From the IMG/VR virus record IMGVR_UViG_3300027771_000138, positions 1-20,213 of that record: a DNA stretch of 20,213 bases; one strand, 5' to 3'. Position numbers and translations under genes: made by a program. The notes under the pieces were generated by a model, which did not search any database, had not been told where the DNA came from, and was given only the letters and a program-made list of their open reading frames with translations. This document shows positions 4,151 through 19,386 of the stretch, piece by piece (within the stretch, counting starts at the first letter, position 1; each line of letters starts with the position of its first letter). Source of the stretch: a virus.

Positions 4151-4538
4151 CTAAATCCTCTAGATGTCTTATATTTTCTTTTTCTGTAAAATCGTGTGAG
4201 ACATGAATAACCTTGCCTTTCCAAGTTTTTTCTATTTCTGCTTTTTGAACTTCATCGTCTTCAAAGAAAAACTGCACATCAATTCCTTCTTCATTCTTTA
4301 CAAACTTTAATGTATTTGCCTTATGTATACCTGAACTTTCTCTGCCTTTTTGGTTAAATGGCAAAGGATTAAAGTAAACATTGTTTGTTATACCATGTTT
4401 TAATAAAAAAGCTTTGGTTTCTGGTTCTTCTTCGTAACTTCTACCAGTTATAATAATATCATTTGGTCCTGGTCTTACTCCACATATACCATTACCTAAA
4501 TGAATAACTCCATCTATATCAAATCCATTTACTTTCAT
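4143..4538 (-). CDS. minimal HAD-superfamily phosphatase-like protein
   Basis: This is a 131-aa capless HAD fold. Motif I is FDIDGV with nucleophile Asp7 and general acid Asp9. Motif II is IITGRS (Thr31). The motif III Lys is in HKANTLKF (about 73), and motif IV is FFEDDEVQ with acids at 93-95. All catalytic positions are present, so phosphatase or phosphotransferase activity is expected. Capless HADs of this size often act on nucleotides, nucleic-acid ends or sugar phosphates. The ATG overlaps the stop of the inositol-phosphate synthase gene (TAATG), and its own end overlaps the next gene, so the three are co-translated. One inference is that it dephosphorylates the synthase product to free inositol. 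Another is that it works on a phosphorylated or pyrophosphorylated base in the neighbouring modification pathway. The sequence does not decide between them. Confidence 0.72.
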   Translation of the reverse strand: MKVNGFDIDGVIHLGNGICGVRPGPNDIIITGRSYEEEPETKAFLLKHGITNNVYFNPLPFNQKGRESSGIHKANTLKFVKNEEGIDVQFFFEDDEVQKAEIEKTWKGKVIHVSHDFTEKENIRHLEDLDE

Positions 4539-5737
4539 TATGATTTTACTTTGTTCATTTGTTTTGATGTAGATTCTGTCAGTCTTCTATTAGCTAGCTC
4601 CGTGCATTCATAAATAGCATCTGAAAACATCATTTGATCTGGTGGGGTTTTTTGAGTAAATGCTGAAGGACCTCTTAATGCTCCTACAACTCCTAATTCT
4701 CTAGCAACTTTCAAATATCTAAGTGCATCAATTACTACTCCTCCAGAATTTGGACTATCTTGAACACTTAATTGAGCATCAAATAATACTGGAGAACCTC
4801 CAAATCCTTCAAGCTCTAATCTAAAGTTTGCAACTTTGTTATCTCCATAAAAGTGAATATACTCAGATGGTCCAGCATGTAAGAATGAATCATTAGTTGA
4901 AATACCTCTAATTTCATTTTGCGCTCTAATAACATTTTCTTTAGAAATCTTCTTAGAAGCTAATCTATTTTTATCTTCCATATTCAAAAAGTCAGTATTA
5001 CCACCTACATTTCTTTGAATGTGAGCTTTTACATGGTGACCTCTTTCAAAAGCTAATTCTTGTAGCATTTGAGATACGATACTTGCACCAAATTGAGAAC
5101 GCATATCATCTCCAATTAATGGAATTCCAGCATCGATAAATCTTTGTTCCCATACAGGGTCAGAAGCAATAAATACTGGGATACAATTTACAAAAGAAAT
5201 TCCAGTTTCTAGACAAATTTCAGCCCAAAATTCTGTAGTTTTTTGAGAACCTACTGGTAAATAATTAACTAATATTTCAACTTTTCTTGCCTTTAATTCT
5301 TTAATTACTTTATCTTTCCATTTTCTCTCCAATCTAGGAGTCCAAGATACTCTATTCATATCTGTAGAATTTCTTAACTTTTCAGAAACTAAGAATCTAT
5401 TTTCTTCAGGATAATTATCCATAAGTCCAGCATAACCGTCAATAACAGGGGCTTCAAATACTGGAGCTGTAGATTTAATAGTATCTACAATATTCCATGA
5501 GCAGTTTGGTTTCTGTCTCAAAGCTTTTCCTAATGGTAAACCGATTTTACGTTCATCAATATCATATCCTACTACAAATTCGACATCACCAGCTAAATAG
5601 CCACCAATGTCCATTTTCATTACTCCAGTTTTTGCATCAGTATGTTCAGCGTAATATTGAACGCCTTCAACTAAAGATGTTGCACAGTTTCCTGCTCCGA
5701 TAATTCCTACTTTAATTTTCTTGTTTTTCTTTGCCAT
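4538..5737 (-). CDS. ino1: myo-inositol-1-phosphate synthase, prokaryotic type
   Basis: This enzyme converts glucose 6-phosphate to 1L-myo-inositol 1-phosphate (EC 5.5.1.4) using bound NAD. The 399-aa length fits the bacterial/archaeal class. The N-terminal Rossmann NAD-binding motif is GIIGAGNCATSL (11-22). Family blocks follow in order: NYLPVGS (158-164), FVNCIPVFIAS (182-192), GDDMRSQFGAS (209-219), NVGGNTDFLNM (243-253), RLASKKISKE (258-267), GPSEYI (289-294) and DSPNSGGVVIDA (327-338). The GDD(I/V)K-SQ lysine seen in many homologues is Arg here, a conservative change; the KKISK lysines are kept. No truncation is visible. It lies 100 bp after the SGNH-like gene and overlaps the HAD gene by one base (TAATG). 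In cells the product feeds phosphatidylinositol, mycothiol or di-inositol phosphate synthesis. Its role in a phage is unknown; its neighbours raise the possibility of a DNA modification precursor. Confidence 0.93.
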   Translation of the reverse strand: MAKKNKKIKVGIIGAGNCATSLVEGVQYYAEHTDAKTGVMKMDIGGYLAGDVEFVVGYDIDERKIGLPLGKALRQKPNCSWNIVDTIKSTAPVFEAPVIDGYAGLMDNYPEENRFLVSEKLRNSTDMNRVSWTPRLERKWKDKVIKELKARKVEILVNYLPVGSQKTTEFWAEICLETGISFVNCIPVFIASDPVWEQRFIDAGIPLIGDDMRSQFGASIVSQMLQELAFERGHHVKAHIQRNVGGNTDFLNMEDKNRLASKKISKENVIRAQNEIRGISTNDSFLHAGPSEYIHFYGDNKVANFRLELEGFGGSPVLFDAQLSVQDSPNSGGVVIDALRYLKVARELGVVGALRGPSAFTQKTPPDQMMFSDAIYECTELANRRLTESTSKQMNKVKS

Positions 5738-13609: not shown

Positions 13610-15469
13610 TCAGGTAATTTCACAACTTCCTCCTGCACATGCTAGTTCGCCCGATAGATCCGTGTTGTCTTCTACTTCGATAACATTTGATAAATCTATT
13701 TCTGTTAATGATTTCATCATTTCTTTATATTTTGTTTTTGTAATATCTTCAAATGGAGCTTGTGTATAACTACCACCATCATAAGGTAGTACAGCTAATC
13801 CATTGTATGAATCTCTATTTGTCCACATCCATTCTCCTGCCAATTCCCAATCTTCTTTTTTCAATGAAATTGTTGCAGAAACATTATGTGTATTTGAACC
13901 CTTTCTGTGGCCACCAACTACCCAGTCTGCGGCTACTTTTTTTACTCTATCCAATAATGCGAATGGAGATTCTGTTCTTGTTATTGATCCGCTTGGTGCT
14001 TTTTGCGGTACAGTTATACATGCCGTATCATGGGGCCTAAAGTATTCATCTTCTATTAGTTCTGGGTGATTTTGTTTTAGGTACGGGTATATTGATTCAT
14101 TCTTACCAACTCTAATTCTTCTAATATAATAATCATTATGCCATGCATGAATACCTGATGACGTACCTAGAACTAATGAAGTTGTTCCAGCTGGTTTTAC
14201 AGTAGTACATCTTGCAGCTTTATTTATTCCAATCAATTTAGCAACTCGAGAATTTTCTCTCTTAACTATATCTGCTGCTTTTTGCATATCATAACCAAGT
14301 ACTCTACCACTACCGATTCCAGTCATTGAGACACCAACTAAAGCTTCTTTTTCTGTTGTCTCTTGCCATATCTCTCTAAGATAATGGAAACTAGTATATC
14401 CGGCTTGGAGTGTTCCTATAAATGCGGCTGCTTTAACTCTTTCATTTAAGTCTTCTTGTGATTCTATATTTGAAACATTTACTTCACATAGGTTGCAAAA
14501 CTGAAAAGGTCTTAAAGCAATTTCGCAACATGGGTTTGTTCCCCAATCTTTATCATTATTAAGATATATACCAGGTTCACCTGCCCCTGATAACTCAACC
14601 CTTTTCCACAAGTCCATGAAAAATGATTTTGTAATTTTATGTCTCATTAAACATGCAGAATTATTTGCTCTACCTCTTTGTGGATTCAACTCCCACCAAT
14701 TACCTACTTTACAAGAAATCATCTGATCATCGTCTGCAGAAAACAAACTAATCAATGCAGCTCGTCTAATTCCACCAGCTAAAACTGCGTCAGCAATATA
14801 ACATACAATATCATGAGCTTCAAGTGTAGTTAATTTTTCACCATTTTCTTTTGTTTCTAAAATACCTCTTACTTTTAAGATACATTCTTTTAATGGTTGA
14901 GGTCCTGGGGCTTTACCACCTGATGTAACGAGCATAGAACCCTTTGGTCTAATATCTGAAAAATCAAAATCAATATTGCTTCCGCCACCATTCATATAAG
15001 ATTTCATTAGAACTTTAATTGCATCAGCCCAACCTTCTATTGAATCACCAACCAAAAATCTTCTAGTTCTTTTTGGCCAGGGTTTTTGAATAATTGGAAG
15101 TTTTGCAACGTGGTGTTTTTGAACTGAATAGCCTACGCCTGTGCCTCCTAATAGCAAAAACATTGTTTCATTAAACGAGTCAATAGAATCTATTGGTAAA
15201 TATGCACAATTATAAATTCTATTTGGAGATATTTCAATTGGTTTACCTGCAAACTGCATACTTCTCATTGAAGGAAGTACCTTTTTATCATGAACATATT
15301 GGTATGCAGTTGATATCTCACCTGTTAATTCAGGATATGTTTTTTGATGCATTAGCATATTCCTTGTAACTAACTCTTCCCAAGTTTCTCGCCTATTTAA
15401 TTCAGGTACGTATTTTGCGTACTTCATATAAACTGTAATTTCTGATAGAATTTGATTTGATATTTGCAT
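13610..15469 (-). CDS. nrdJ: adenosylcobalamin-dependent (class II) ribonucleoside-triphosphate reductase
   Basis: This enzyme reduces ribonucleotides to deoxyribonucleotides using a B12-derived radical, with no oxygen or second subunit needed. The 619-aa protein matches the monomeric Lactobacillus leichmannii RTPR type (739 aa there). NCAYLP holds Cys88 (RTPR C119). NPCCE (312-316) holds the radical Cys314 and Glu316 (C408, E410). Cys325 lies exactly 11 residues on (C419). The C-terminal tail ends in C-AGGS-C (611 and 616), the same five-residue spacing as the RTPR redox pair C731/C736 that takes electrons from thioredoxin. All catalytic residues are thus present despite the shorter length. 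An AAGGG ribosome site lies about 8 nt before the ATG. The host must supply or take up cobalamin, or salvage it. The gene lies behind a terminator-like hairpin, so it may be a separate transcription unit. Confidence 0.95.
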   Translation of the reverse strand: MQISNQILSEITVYMKYAKYVPELNRRETWEELVTRNMLMHQKTYPELTGEISTAYQYVHDKKVLPSMRSMQFAGKPIEISPNRIYNCAYLPIDSIDSFNETMFLLLGGTGVGYSVQKHHVAKLPIIQKPWPKRTRRFLVGDSIEGWADAIKVLMKSYMNGGGSNIDFDFSDIRPKGSMLVTSGGKAPGPQPLKECILKVRGILETKENGEKLTTLEAHDIVCYIADAVLAGGIRRAALISLFSADDDQMISCKVGNWWELNPQRGRANNSACLMRHKITKSFFMDLWKRVELSGAGEPGIYLNNDKDWGTNPCCEIALRPFQFCNLCEVNVSNIESQEDLNERVKAAAFIGTLQAGYTSFHYLREIWQETTEKEALVGVSMTGIGSGRVLGYDMQKAADIVKRENSRVAKLIGINKAARCTTVKPAGTTSLVLGTSSGIHAWHNDYYIRRIRVGKNESIYPYLKQNHPELIEDEYFRPHDTACITVPQKAPSGSITRTESPFALLDRVKKVAADWVVGGHRKGSNTHNVSATISLKKEDWELAGEWMWTNRDSYNGLAVLPYDGGSYTQAPFEDITKTKYKEMMKSLTEIDLSNVIEVEDNTDLSGELACAGGSCEIT

Positions 15470-15559: not shown

Positions 15560-16903
15560 TCAATTCATTTCGTCGAATTTCTTTTTCATCATTTTTCTTA
15601 AATATTCATTATGGTTGTCCATTTCCTTTGTAGTTTCTTTTCCTTGTATTGATGTATCTACATATATATCTATTTGACCGTTTGAAGCATTCATTTTACT
15701 AGGGAATGTTATACCATCAGGACCGAATCTATTTTTAATAACATGCCATCTTCCTGTATTTGCTAGCTTATCTTCTATTTTTCTACTCAAGGATAGAACA
15801 AAATCTGCAGTCATAATTTTACTATATGATTCTGCAATCTTTTCTGCTCCAATTATATCATCTTCTAAAGCTGATCTATTTGCTTGTGATGCAGTCCAAA
15901 CTGGTATTTCATATTCACCTGCCATACCTCTTAAATCTTCATAGATATTACCAAGTTCTAATCTAATTTCTTTCCCATGTCCACGTAAAAGATCTGCATA
16001 ATCTACTATAATTAAATCTGGTTTTTTTCCAAATGCCATACATCTTTGAATATGGGCCGATATAGTATTTACAGTTGCGGCCTTAGTTGGATAGTATTTT
16101 ACAATTAAATCACCCTTTAATGTTTCAACCTTTTTCTTAACATCATCAATATTATATTTTAATTCTTGGGCCTGGATTCCCGTGAATACTGCGTCATATC
16201 TTAAACCTACATAAGCTGCATTTAATTCAAGAGTATAATGTATAACATTTAGTCCTGCTTTTACTGCATTTGCTCCTACATTTACAAGGGCCCATGATTT
16301 TCCAATACCAGCAGGAGCAACCATTACCCCTAATTCACCTTTACCTAAACCACCGTCTGCTATATCATCAATTGCATCCCACCCAGTTTTTACTGTATTT
16401 CTAACTGAGTCTAGATATCTTTCATCTATGTGTTTTGCGTATTCATGGCCGACATCTTTTTCTACACCAGCCTTCATAGCATTATCAACCTTAATTTTTA
16501 TAGAATCATAATCTCCCCTATTTAATAATTCAACAGATTCAATTATGGCTTTTTTTATTTCTTGATTTTTACAAAATTCTAATGCTTTATTTTTAACAAA
16601 ATCTAGGTCTTCTGCATCCATCTGGCCAAAGGCTTCTTTTAGATTATCAGCAATAGTTTTTTGAAGTAATTCATTATCCATTTCTACTATTTTAACCTTC
16701 ATAGCTTCCAATGTTGGAGTGGAATTATATTCCTTAAAATAATCTTTAATAATATCTAATATTATAATATTGGCTTCTGATTCAAAATAAGAAGATTCTA
16801 AAATATCTAATATTTGTTGTAGGAATAGTTTATCTTTGAATAATAAAGCTATTAACTTTATTTGAAAAGAATATCCAAAATCACTTAACTTATTTACTTT
16901 CAT
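15560..16903 (-). CDS. 41: replicative DNA helicase, gp41/DnaB type
   Basis: This hexameric 5'-3' helicase unwinds DNA ahead of the polymerase and anchors primase. The protein is 447 aa (T4 gp41 is about 475). The N-terminal 150 residues are helical, as in the DnaB/gp41 collar. The RecA-like motor starts near residue 170. Walker A is APAGIGKS (196-203), the catalytic Glu lies in YTLELN (around 223-228), Walker B is LIIVDYADLL (297-306), and the H3-type TASQANRSA (338-346) senses nucleotide and DNA. A basic KNRFGPDG near 390 fits the arginine-finger/H4 region. Its ATG overlaps the end of the 5' nuclease gene by 14 bp in another frame, so the two are coupled. No primase or helicase loader is visible in this window. 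Confidence 0.94.
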   Translation of the reverse strand: MKVNKLSDFGYSFQIKLIALLFKDKLFLQQILDILESSYFESEANIIILDIIKDYFKEYNSTPTLEAMKVKIVEMDNELLQKTIADNLKEAFGQMDAEDLDFVKNKALEFCKNQEIKKAIIESVELLNRGDYDSIKIKVDNAMKAGVEKDVGHEYAKHIDERYLDSVRNTVKTGWDAIDDIADGGLGKGELGVMVAPAGIGKSWALVNVGANAVKAGLNVIHYTLELNAAYVGLRYDAVFTGIQAQELKYNIDDVKKKVETLKGDLIVKYYPTKAATVNTISAHIQRCMAFGKKPDLIIVDYADLLRGHGKEIRLELGNIYEDLRGMAGEYEIPVWTASQANRSALEDDIIGAEKIAESYSKIMTADFVLSLSRKIEDKLANTGRWHVIKNRFGPDGITFPSKMNASNGQIDIYVDTSIQGKETTKEMDNHNEYLRKMMKKKFDEMN

Positions 16904-17945
16904 TATTTTCTTCTCTTATTGCAAAAGCATTTAATGTAGAAAAAGTATCTTTAAGCCATAGTTGGGGATTTTTTATGTTCATGTTTATAGAATCTTCTAA
17001 CAACATTTTCATAAAATTTGGTTTTATAAGTTTAGGTATTTTAGATTTACAAATATTATTTATAGACTCTTTGGCTCTACCAGATATATCAACCTCTTCT
17101 AATTGCATTAACTTATGGTTTAGTTCTAACATATCTTTACTGCCTAAAATAGATTCTGATAGTTTTGTACCATCGTCAGCTGACTTTATGTGTTCAAATA
17201 TATCTTCTAGTCCTATTTTTTTATCTTCAAATAATATGGGTAATCTTTTTTGTAGTGTTTTAGTACCTGCACCACGTATCCCTGGAATATTATCTGAACT
17301 ATCACCTGTTAAAACCCTATACATTAAGAAATTTTTTGAATCTATATCAAATTCTTCCTTAATAGTGTCTTTGAAATAGAATTTTTTCTTAGTTGGCGAC
17401 CACACTTGTACCCTGTCATCTATGAGTTGTAGAAAGTCTTTATCGGTTGACATTATAATACATTGACTTTTAGGATACACTTGTTGAGAAATATAAGCCA
17501 TTGAATCATCAGCCTCTATATTTTCTATAGACATTACACTAACAGGTAGTTGTTCTAAGTATTGTGATAGTCTTTGTAGTTGTTGTGCCATTGCTACTCT
17601 TTCATCGTCAACACTATTAAACTCATTTATCCTGGTCATTCTGTGTTTAACTCTACGAGTTGCTTTGTAGTCTGGAAAAAGTTTTCTACGTCGTTGACTT
17701 CCGCCTTTACCGTCAAAACAAATAATAACTCTAGTTGGTTTTATGTTTCTAATTGCATATCCTATTGACATTAGAAATCCAGTAATACCACCAACATGGG
17801 TACCATTTTCATTGACAGTTGGTACTACAACAAATGCTCTTATAAACGTATTTAGTCCATCTATAATTAAAATCCTGTCATTTGCATCTTTAGGCAATTC
17901 CTGCTTTTCCAGGCTTGCCAACATATTTAGGTATTTTTTATTCAT
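16890..17945 (-). CDS. rnh: T4 RNase H-type 5'-3' exonuclease / flap nuclease
   Basis: This nuclease removes RNA primers and 5' flaps from lagging-strand fragments. The 351-aa protein has the complete FEN/RNase H metal site: IDGLN (Asp29), CFDG (Asp78), IEADDS (144-148), STDKD (166-170) and GDSSDN (214-219). After these come GIRGAGTKTLQKR (222-234), the helix-hairpin-helix DNA-binding element. The basic GGSQRRRKLFPDYKATR stretch (80-97) is the helical-arch entry region typical of the family. The length fits T4 RNase H (305 aa) with a longer C-terminus. It is the first gene after the structured noncoding block, and its start lies 4-5 nt after the conserved promoter-like block. No clear Shine-Dalgarno is present. 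Confidence 0.93.
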   Translation of the reverse strand: MNKKYLNMLASLEKQELPKDANDRILIIDGLNTFIRAFVVVPTVNENGTHVGGITGFLMSIGYAIRNIKPTRVIICFDGKGGSQRRRKLFPDYKATRRVKHRMTRINEFNSVDDERVAMAQQLQRLSQYLEQLPVSVMSIENIEADDSMAYISQQVYPKSQCIIMSTDKDFLQLIDDRVQVWSPTKKKFYFKDTIKEEFDIDSKNFLMYRVLTGDSSDNIPGIRGAGTKTLQKRLPILFEDKKIGLEDIFEHIKSADDGTKLSESILGSKDMLELNHKLMQLEEVDISGRAKESINNICKSKIPKLIKPNFMKMLLEDSINMNIKNPQLWLKDTFSTLNAFAIREENNESK

Positions 17946-18002: not shown

Positions 18003-18021
18003 AAAAATAAAAGGCTCTTGG

Positions 18022-18261
18022 TTGATTAAAACAGTCGCAATATAAGTGAGGACTTTTAATCTTAACATTCTACACCACGAGAAGGTGGCCTTTTTTCGTA
18101 GAACTTTGTATATTGCGTAAGCTCTATCACTCTTTTAGTACTAGTTCCCCTACAGTGACTCTCAGAGAACATTGGTATCAGCCCTAAAATAGCTTCAGAC
18201 TTGCGGGTTTTTGGTATTGGCCACTAGGTCTACCTAAACCACTTTCGCAATATACTTAATA
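18022..18261 (-). ncRNA. candidate structured noncoding RNA with alternative pairings
   Basis: No gene fits this gap between uvsX and the nuclease gene. By my count 76 of the 180 bases from 18061 to 18240 are G or C (42%), well above the AT-rich surroundings. On the minus strand a perfect 10-bp closing helix joins GTATATTGCG (18255-18246) to CGCAATATAC (18117-18108). Inside it, GTTCTC (18170-18165) pairs with GGGAAC (18149-18144) using one U-G wobble that exists only on the minus strand. The loop of that hairpin carries TCACT, which can pair with AGTGA (18131-18127) as a pseudoknot. Downstream are a GTAGAA/TTCTAC hairpin enclosing a GTGG/CCAC stem, and an 8-bp GATTAAAA/TTTTAATC hairpin whose loop holds a second TATATTGCG (18044-18036). 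That copy competes for the same partner. I recognise no known RNA family. It could be a switch, ribozyme, attenuator or stable phage sRNA. Confidence 0.6.
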
Positions 18262-19386
18262 TTAACCTGTTGGAGGTGCTTCATCTGTATGTTCTAAGTC
18301 ATCAATTCCAAAATTATCTAATTTGTAATCCATTATAACTTTATCACATATCTTCTTATACACTTCTTCCTTTAATGTTGGGTCAGCTTCTAACTTTCCA
18401 TTCCAATCTTTTGAAAGGAATTTAATTTCTTCACCTGAATCTCTAGTTAAAGTATACCAACTACCACCTTGCTTAATCATTCCATAGTCTTTTAGAATTC
18501 TTAACCATCCACCTAAATCGTCTATTCCAGATTCGAAATAAATATCGAATTCAGAAGTTCTCAATGGTGGACCCATTCTGTTTTTAACAACTATACATTT
18601 GGTCTTAATTCCAACAACTTGGTCTTTTCCATTAACCTTTGCTTTAATTTGACCTGCAGCCTTTAACCTTAACCTACAAGATGCATGAAATTGTAATGCC
18701 TTTCCACCACTTGTTGTCCAAGGGTCTCCAAACATTACACCAAGTTTTTGACGTAATTGGTTTGTAAATATCAAAGCAATTCTCTGGCGACCAATCATGT
18801 TTGTACACTTTCTCATTGCCTTTGAAATAACAATAGCCTTTCCAGTCGACCAACCGTCTTTACTGTAATCAGCTTCTTGTTCTACTCTAGTAGTTGCAGC
18901 TGCAACTGAATCTACAACTATAGTTACCAGTCTATCCTTGTCGCTTTCTCTAACTTTACTAATGATGTTTTCTATAACTTCAAATATATCTTCAACTGTT
19001 TCTAATTGAATATATAATAGCTTTTTAGTATCAATACCTAAACACTCAAGAAATTCTTCATTTACTGCATTTTCAGTATCTATAAATACAGCCAATCCAC
19101 CCTTCTTTTGTGTGTTTGCAAGTATTTGTGCAGCAACTAAAGATTTTCCTGAAGCCTCCATACCAGTTATTTCGGTAATTCTACCAACTGGAATACCACC
19201 ATTAGGCCTATTAGCTATCGCAATATCAAGCATAGAAGAACCTGTTGAAATCCATTCAGTTAAATCTGTTGGTGTTTCATCGGCTCCATCAAGAAAGTGG
19301 GCTACTTTAAAGTCCTTAAATTTCTTGTTTAAGCTATCAGCTAATACTTCTGCTAATTTATCTCTGTCTTCTCGTTTATTTACCAT
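18262..19386 (-). CDS. uvsX: UvsX/RecA-type recombinase
   Basis: This recombinase coats ssDNA and catalyses strand exchange for recombination-dependent replication and repair. The protein is 374 aa. Walker A is GMEASGKS (75-82), and the strand VTIVVDSVAAA (154-164) holds the Walker B Asp. TNQLRQKLGVMFGDPWTTSGGKALQFHAS (split across 208-236) corresponds to RecA's TNQ...GGxALKFYAS region, including DNA-binding loop L2 and the ATP-sensing Gln. The first 40 residues form the polymerisation helix region. The tail is acidic (DDLEHTDEA), as in RecA proteins. The start lies 5 nt after the gp32 stop with no Shine-Dalgarno, so translation is probably coupled to gp32. The uncommon Walker A Glu-Ala-Ser in place of RecA's Glu-Ser-Ser is typical of phage forms. 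Confidence 0.95.
   Translation of the reverse strand: MVNKREDRDKLAEVLADSLNKKFKDFKVAHFLDGADETPTDLTEWISTGSSMLDIAIANRPNGGIPVGRITEITGMEASGKSLVAAQILANTQKKGGLAVFIDTENAVNEEFLECLGIDTKKLLYIQLETVEDIFEVIENIISKVRESDKDRLVTIVVDSVAAATTRVEQEADYSKDGWSTGKAIVISKAMRKCTNMIGRQRIALIFTNQLRQKLGVMFGDPWTTSGGKALQFHASCRLRLKAAGQIKAKVNGKDQVVGIKTKCIVVKNRMGPPLRTSEFDIYFESGIDDLGGWLRILKDYGMIKQGGSWYTLTRDSGEEIKFLSKDWNGKLEADPTLKEEVYKKICDKVIMDYKLDNFGIDDLEHTDEAPPTG

Follow-up and report, generated by a model that had tools for sequence, protein, structure and literature searches.

The analysed stretch of DNA (the window; 20,213 nt, IMG/VR record IMGVR_UViG_3300027771_000138) comes from an uncultured virus with bacterial hosts. On its minus strand, uvsX is followed by a 5′-3′ exonuclease gene, and the RNA studied here lies between these two DNA-replication genes. 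An earlier note, made from the sequence alone, had named both genes, and Pfam matches agree with it (Table 1). Pfam-type gene annotation also gave matches to a B12-type ribonucleotide reductase (13610-15469) and a myo-inositol-1-phosphate synthase (4538-5737), both on the minus strand near the T4-like replication module.

The same note had described a word occurring three times in the gap and proposed that it forms an RNA with two mutually exclusive helices. The three words are where it placed them: read on the minus strand, TATATTGCG occupies 18254-18246 and 18044-18036, and CGCAATATA occupies 18117-18109. The inverted copy pairs over 10 bp once 18255/18108 is counted and over 9 bp otherwise. 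The 8-bp hairpin was likewise confirmed (GATTAAAA at 18061-18054 with TTTTAATC at 18031-18024), with the second TATATTGCG partly inside the loop and partly next to it. When the 240-nt region was shuffled, 32% of the shuffles contained a 9-bp inverted pair and 11% repeated a 9-mer directly; the two features occurred with a common word in 0.05%, a figure calculated post hoc. G+C is raised, at 0.42 in the upstream domain and 0.36 in the ribozyme described below, compared with 0.32 in the whole window. Folding of the single minus-strand sequence was unremarkable (z = −1.3). The plus-strand RNA was rejected as a candidate, with a weaker fold (z −0.84) and no match to the HDV-like fold. The three words turned out to be spread over two adjacent RNAs, 18255-18108 and 18104-18009, rather than belonging to one. 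The interval that had been marked ends at 18022, one base short of C18021, and leaves out the P2′ strand (18015-18009).

Table 1 Features between and including uvsX and the exonuclease gene (positions in the window).
Feature	Positions	Strand	Basis
5′-3′ exonuclease, downstream gene	16890-17945	-	Pfam 5_3_exonuc_N, E 7e-33
HDV-like ribozyme, predicted	18009-18104	-	Covariance-model match 18104-18004, 124.8 bits; covariation
J4/2 AACCAAGA with catalytic-type C18021	18016-18023	-	C in 46/46 copies, then Y-R-A
P4 (the 8-bp hairpin of the earlier note); inner stem 18053-18051 / 18036-18034	18024-18061	-	6 compensatory pairs
P1.1, C18081-G18066		-	Invariant
P3 (18086-18084 / 18076-18074) and L3 UUCUCGU (18083-18077)	18074-18086	-	P3 and L3 U-U-C-N-C-G invariant
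P2 5′ strand; partner 18015-18009, pseudoknot with P1	18088-18094	-	4 compensatory pairs including 18087-18017; P2 absent from search model
P1 5′ strand; partner 18073-18067, G1-U38 wobble at cleavage site	18098-18104	-	99.7% paired; 5/7 pairs compensatory
Predicted self-cleavage site, A18105 / G18104	18104-18105	-	First P1 base, G in 46/46 copies
Structured 3′-UTR domain of uvsX; 14-pair closing helix 18255-18242 / 18121-18108	18108-18255	-	Covariation
Apical hairpin of the domain, 18170-18164 / 18150-18144	18144-18170	-	
uvsX (RecA-like recombinase), upstream gene	18262-19386	-	Pfam RecA, E 3e-62

We collected relatives of uvsX from IMG/VR and gathered the ribozyme core by pattern. A covariance model, R2, contained P1, P3 and P4 only, and P2 was counted separately. 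R2 recovered the element in many loci missed by the first pattern, giving a total of 56 distinct IMG/VR contigs, and 14 of the 18 records searched whole carry the ribozyme, with one strong copy each. The match in the window was the only strong one there (runner-up, 12.1 bits). As read by hand, the P2′ strand GCCUUUU pairs with AAAAGGC located between P1 and P3. The HDV-like layout is complete and ends at 18009, where P4 is followed by J4/2 and then P2′. Most of the second TATATTGCG is inside the P4 loop.

The hallmarks of the class (G1, L3 U-U-C-N-C-G, G39 and J4/2 C-Y-R-A) were invariant in all 46 aligned copies. Among 43 distinct sequences, 97.9% of cells were paired in a nested double pseudoknot of P1, P2, P3, P1.1 and P4. 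Fifteen pairs in P1, P2 and P4 were compensatory, compared with a mean of 7.0 in shuffles, none of which (0/500) reached that number. Sliding the partners by 1-3 columns as a control lowered pairing to 32-45%. Although P2 lies outside the search model, it pairs too, and four of its positions show compensatory changes. The cleavage-site G at the base of P1 faces U in 39 of the 43 sequences and C in the other four. Across 1.5 Mb of viral loci, a strict descriptor built from HDV-like features matched the window's ribozyme family alone. Once loosened, the descriptor also picked up other HDV-like ribozymes from unrelated phages. A version of the strict descriptor with another base at the catalytic position was not a valid control, since it can match those elements in a shifted register. 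Similar DNA was not found among 50,697 phage records. When the core pattern was run against an 84,980-species genome set (pattern search only), none of the 24 matches passed the core-plus-P1 check. On this comparative evidence, we assign 18104-18009 on the minus strand with high confidence to the HDV-like self-cleaving ribozymes, with cleavage predicted, and the minus-strand RNA very probably cuts itself in the manner of the hepatitis delta ribozyme.

No Rfam RNA was called in the window at the gathering threshold, and a tRNA/tmRNA scan called neither. An Rfam scan had been suggested by the earlier note; run permissively on the gap, it gave one match, to RF02682 (HDV-F-prausnitzii; 25.7 bits, E 0.007, 18104-18053). 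Scores of 25.7 and 21.0 bits place the element outside RF02682, whose gathering cut-off is 44 bits. The alignment is also half-misplaced: P1, L3 and P1′ are sensible, and the bases after P1′ give U for the catalytic C and no P2 partner. The HDV-like class had escaped notice because the element falls short of the nearest Rfam model's cut-off. The ribozyme shares with RF02682 and the HDV-like class the P1-P2-P3-P1.1-P4 layout, a 7-nt L3, C-Y-R-A in J4/2 and G at the cleavage site. It differs from RF02682 in forming its own sequence family, in its long AT-rich P4, and in its setting, a phage mRNA in which a stem precedes it. The suggestion that the layout belongs to no described family thus fails for the 3′ part, which falls in a known class. 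Of the options left open there (switch, ribozyme or regulatory RNA), the ribozyme is the one upheld. A real pseudoknot exists as well, but the relevant one is P1/P2, which had not been seen.

The upstream part, 18255-18108, is on covariation grounds a structured RNA separate from the ribozyme. The 14 positions of its closing helix comprise the 10 bp previously described, one A-A mismatch (in the window) and three further pairs. Twelve compensatory pairs were counted in the domain in six relatives (0/500 shuffles), seven of them in the closing helix. The helix stays paired although both of its strands have changed, as in the compensated variant GUAUAUCACAUAAG/CUUAUGUGAUAUAC of L009, and it stops 3 nt before G1. 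Covariation thus bears out that the minus-strand RNA is structured and, of the two helices proposed, upholds the first; the second did not hold up. The apical loop (18159-18154) possibly pairs with 18131-18126 as a pseudoknot; these pairs show no variation. Divergent versions of the domain with an invariant GCTGANACCAAT core were seen after uvsX in L022, L028-L034, L040, L041, L052 and L076, mostly followed by intrinsic terminators. Kinship of the domain with the tRNA-like RNA of the second clade (below) was considered and rejected, the shared GCYGA...CAAUG being too short.

Control of the RNA by two mutually exclusive helices, rejected as a candidate, is now highly improbable. The perfect 9-10-bp matches of the window, and the rarity of such a triple word in shuffles, speak for it. 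However, the longest match for the alternative helix, 9 bp in the window, is down to 4, 5 and 6 bp in L006, L009 and L089, whereas the first helix is maintained by paired changes; the second direct copy falls in the P4 loop, which is variable, and the majority of ribozyme copies have no upstream domain.

All checked ribozyme copies are intergenic. In every locus where uvsX and the exonuclease gene could both be placed, the ribozyme sits somewhere between them and shares their orientation. In the window's clade it usually comes straight after uvsX, with the exonuclease gene always next; in L012, an FkbM methyltransferase gene stands between the domain and the ribozyme. A second clade, whose uvsX is ~72-76% identical, has other genes on both sides, and its ribozyme follows the gene for a 65-aa DUF4494 protein. 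Among 14 control genomes, DUF4494 matched only a Bacteroides; this weak indication, which comes from relatives, suggests that the host is perhaps one of the Bacteroidota.

A stem is predicted to end 0-6 nt ahead of G1 in 25 of the first 26 flanks examined. For comparison, 10.7% of random 60-mers taken from these loci had a terminal stem of at least 6 bp no more than 3 nt from their end. The flanking stems are unrelated in sequence: they include the domain, an 18-bp hairpin (L086), a hairpin of at least 15 bp (L013), an ~80-nt element and the DUF4494 hairpin. The last contains the stop codon of its gene (AAGGUGU...ACACCUU) and has compensated variants, e.g. AAGGUAUU...AAUACCUU. There was no clear upstream stem in L012, L252, L253 and L259, and a weak one in L249. 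Many stems of the second clade are short and individually not significant, and a test for perfect helices across 170 nt has little power in AT-rich DNA.

Other RNAs were observed in these loci. The conserved ~80-nt element (AAGACCGGCATCA...GAA...), with compensated closing stems, precedes the ribozyme in L057, L072, L245, L254, L262 and L269, and the same element follows uvsX in L043, L044 and L046. A conserved RNA of ~220 nt, whose acceptor stem and T arm (GGTTCGAATCC) are tRNA-like and which has a long hairpin-bearing insert, lies right after uvsX in L018, L019, L027, L036, L038, L051, L053, L058, L059, L065-L068, L071, L072 and L080; where tested, neither Rfam nor ARAGORN called it. ARAGORN reported a permuted tmRNA-like gene on the phage contigs L241 (6489-6831) and L269 (1814-2156). 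A tRNA-Ala(TGC) starts directly after the ribozyme P2′ strand in L006 (3250-3324) and L099 (13643-13717).

Eleven relatives have a version of the domain after uvsX and then an intrinsic terminator, with a stem of about −16 to −21 kcal/mol followed by a U-tract. In the twelfth domain carrier, L034, no terminator passed the test. The R2 covariance search found no ribozyme in these loci. No terminator, defined as a GC stem directly followed by a U-tract, was found in the window between 17500 and 18700. The window's stem resembles intrinsic terminators in standing at the 3′ end of an mRNA, in the place that terminators occupy after the domain in relatives; it differs in that no U-tract follows directly and the ribozyme comes next instead. 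L003 and L007, whose uvsX is almost identical, have neither the ribozyme nor a clear terminator, and the device is thus dispensable.

The loosened search also found L325, part of an unrelated 69.6-kb phage contig (IMGVR_UViG_3300043442_000931). L325 carries 13 minimal HDV-like ribozymes on the minus strand, all intergenic, within ~8 kb (~39-48 kb of the contig); no such ribozyme was found in 58 kb of the contig's remainder. All 13 come after a GC hairpin, in most cases resembling GGGGCUUCGGCCCC and always stopping 0-4 nt short of G1, and most cassettes lie 21-23 nt past a stop codon and 23-30 nt ahead of the next start codon. None of the 13 was called by Rfam at gathering level. Additional HDV-like candidates were noted in L280 (5011, 5531 and 6828), L309 (5953) and L342 (minus strand, 1520 and 1919), several right after a strong hairpin, and the cassettes of these three contigs resemble those of L325.

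We propose that the stem and ribozyme form a cassette whose main role is probably 3′-end formation of the uvsX mRNA, because stems of unrelated sequence adjoin the cut, relatives swap in terminators, and L325 repeats the cassette. RNA polymerase would read through the gap, and the ribozyme would fold as a nested double pseudoknot during transcription. C18021 would help to cut the RNA 5′ of G18104 (18105|18104). The uvsX message would then end 3 nt past the closing helix with a 2′,3′-cyclic phosphate and be shielded there against 3′ exonucleases, and the exonuclease message would begin with a 5′-OH and the folded ribozyme. The cassette would replace a terminator in ending the upstream message. 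Comparison of the loci shows the structure, its conservation and synteny, the nearby stem and the exchange with terminators; from these we infer catalysis, its timing, an effect on mRNA decay or stability and any benefit to the phage.

Since one cleavage creates both ends, an active ribozyme could instead serve mainly the downstream message, its defined, structured 5′-OH end affecting the stability or translation of that message, and the constant position of the exonuclease gene in the window's clade fits this. We consider it unlikely: the next gene varies among clades, a tRNA-Ala may intervene, and the spacing ranges from 12 to more than 200 nt, whereas the upstream stem stays beside the cut. 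Slightly less likely still is that the ribozyme is active but its cleavage matters little for regulation, the element being tolerated or selfish and the upstream stem only insulating it from misfolding. A self-contained stem would keep flanking bases out of P1, and L003 and L007 manage without the element; against this stand the long conservation at one syntenic place, the invariant active-site bases, the exchange with terminators and the 13 cassettes of L325.

Processing of tRNA in the style of theta ribozymes is very improbable. The class is the same, and L006 and L099 have tRNA-Ala after the ribozyme, but theta ribozymes cut at the tRNA 3′ end, whereas here the tRNA comes after the ribozyme, and most copies, including that of the window, have no tRNA. 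There is equally little to recommend a degenerate HDV-like fold retained for structure alone, without catalysis: P1.1 has one standard pair only, but neither the catalytic-type C nor the active-site loop varies, although the helices have drifted.

HDV-like ribozymes are already known from phages. The theta ribozymes of gut phages (Kienbeck et al. 2024, PMC10879173) are likewise HDV-like and found in tailed-phage genomes, with Bacteroidota hosts probable there too, and many of their copies away from tRNAs (526 cases) were left with an unexplained role. They are minimal, without a P4 domain, and cut tRNA 3′ ends, a tRNA-associated member being taken here to have its cleavage site at most 5 nt from the tRNA 3′ end; in contrast, the window's ribozyme has an 11-pair P4 with covarying pairs, and its predicted cut follows an mRNA stem in a window without tRNA. 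Hammerhead ribozymes possibly cutting prophage transcripts are also known: according to the part of a 2011 report drawn on here, clustered prophage hammerheads were proposed to cut long transcripts into operon- or gene-length messages (PMC3088659). They belong to another ribozyme class, and that part of the report describes no dedicated stem-loop at the cut. Judged against the open-licence literature, with a report elsewhere possible, what is new here is an HDV-like family with P4 from environmental phages, together with its domain and the arrangement of stem and ribozyme with terminator exchange.

We give an even chance to the wider proposal that several unrelated phage lineages use cassettes of a stem-loop and an HDV-like ribozyme instead of terminators, producing hairpin-capped mRNA 3′ ends with cyclic phosphates. 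Most genes of the ~8-kb stretch of L325 would be punctuated in this way, and the window would hold the long-P4 version.

A repeated word in a single genome can mimic a switch that the relatives do not have. The present family adds a full-size, P4-containing group of HDV-like ribozymes that Rfam models do not call. HDV-like ribozymes occur in many phage genomes, and their role outside tRNA maturation is an acknowledged open question; trimming of mRNA 3′ ends is newly proposed for the class. A stem-loop placed just before the predicted cut, present in unrelated phages and exchangeable with terminators, offers a specific hypothesis for what the non-tRNA copies may do.
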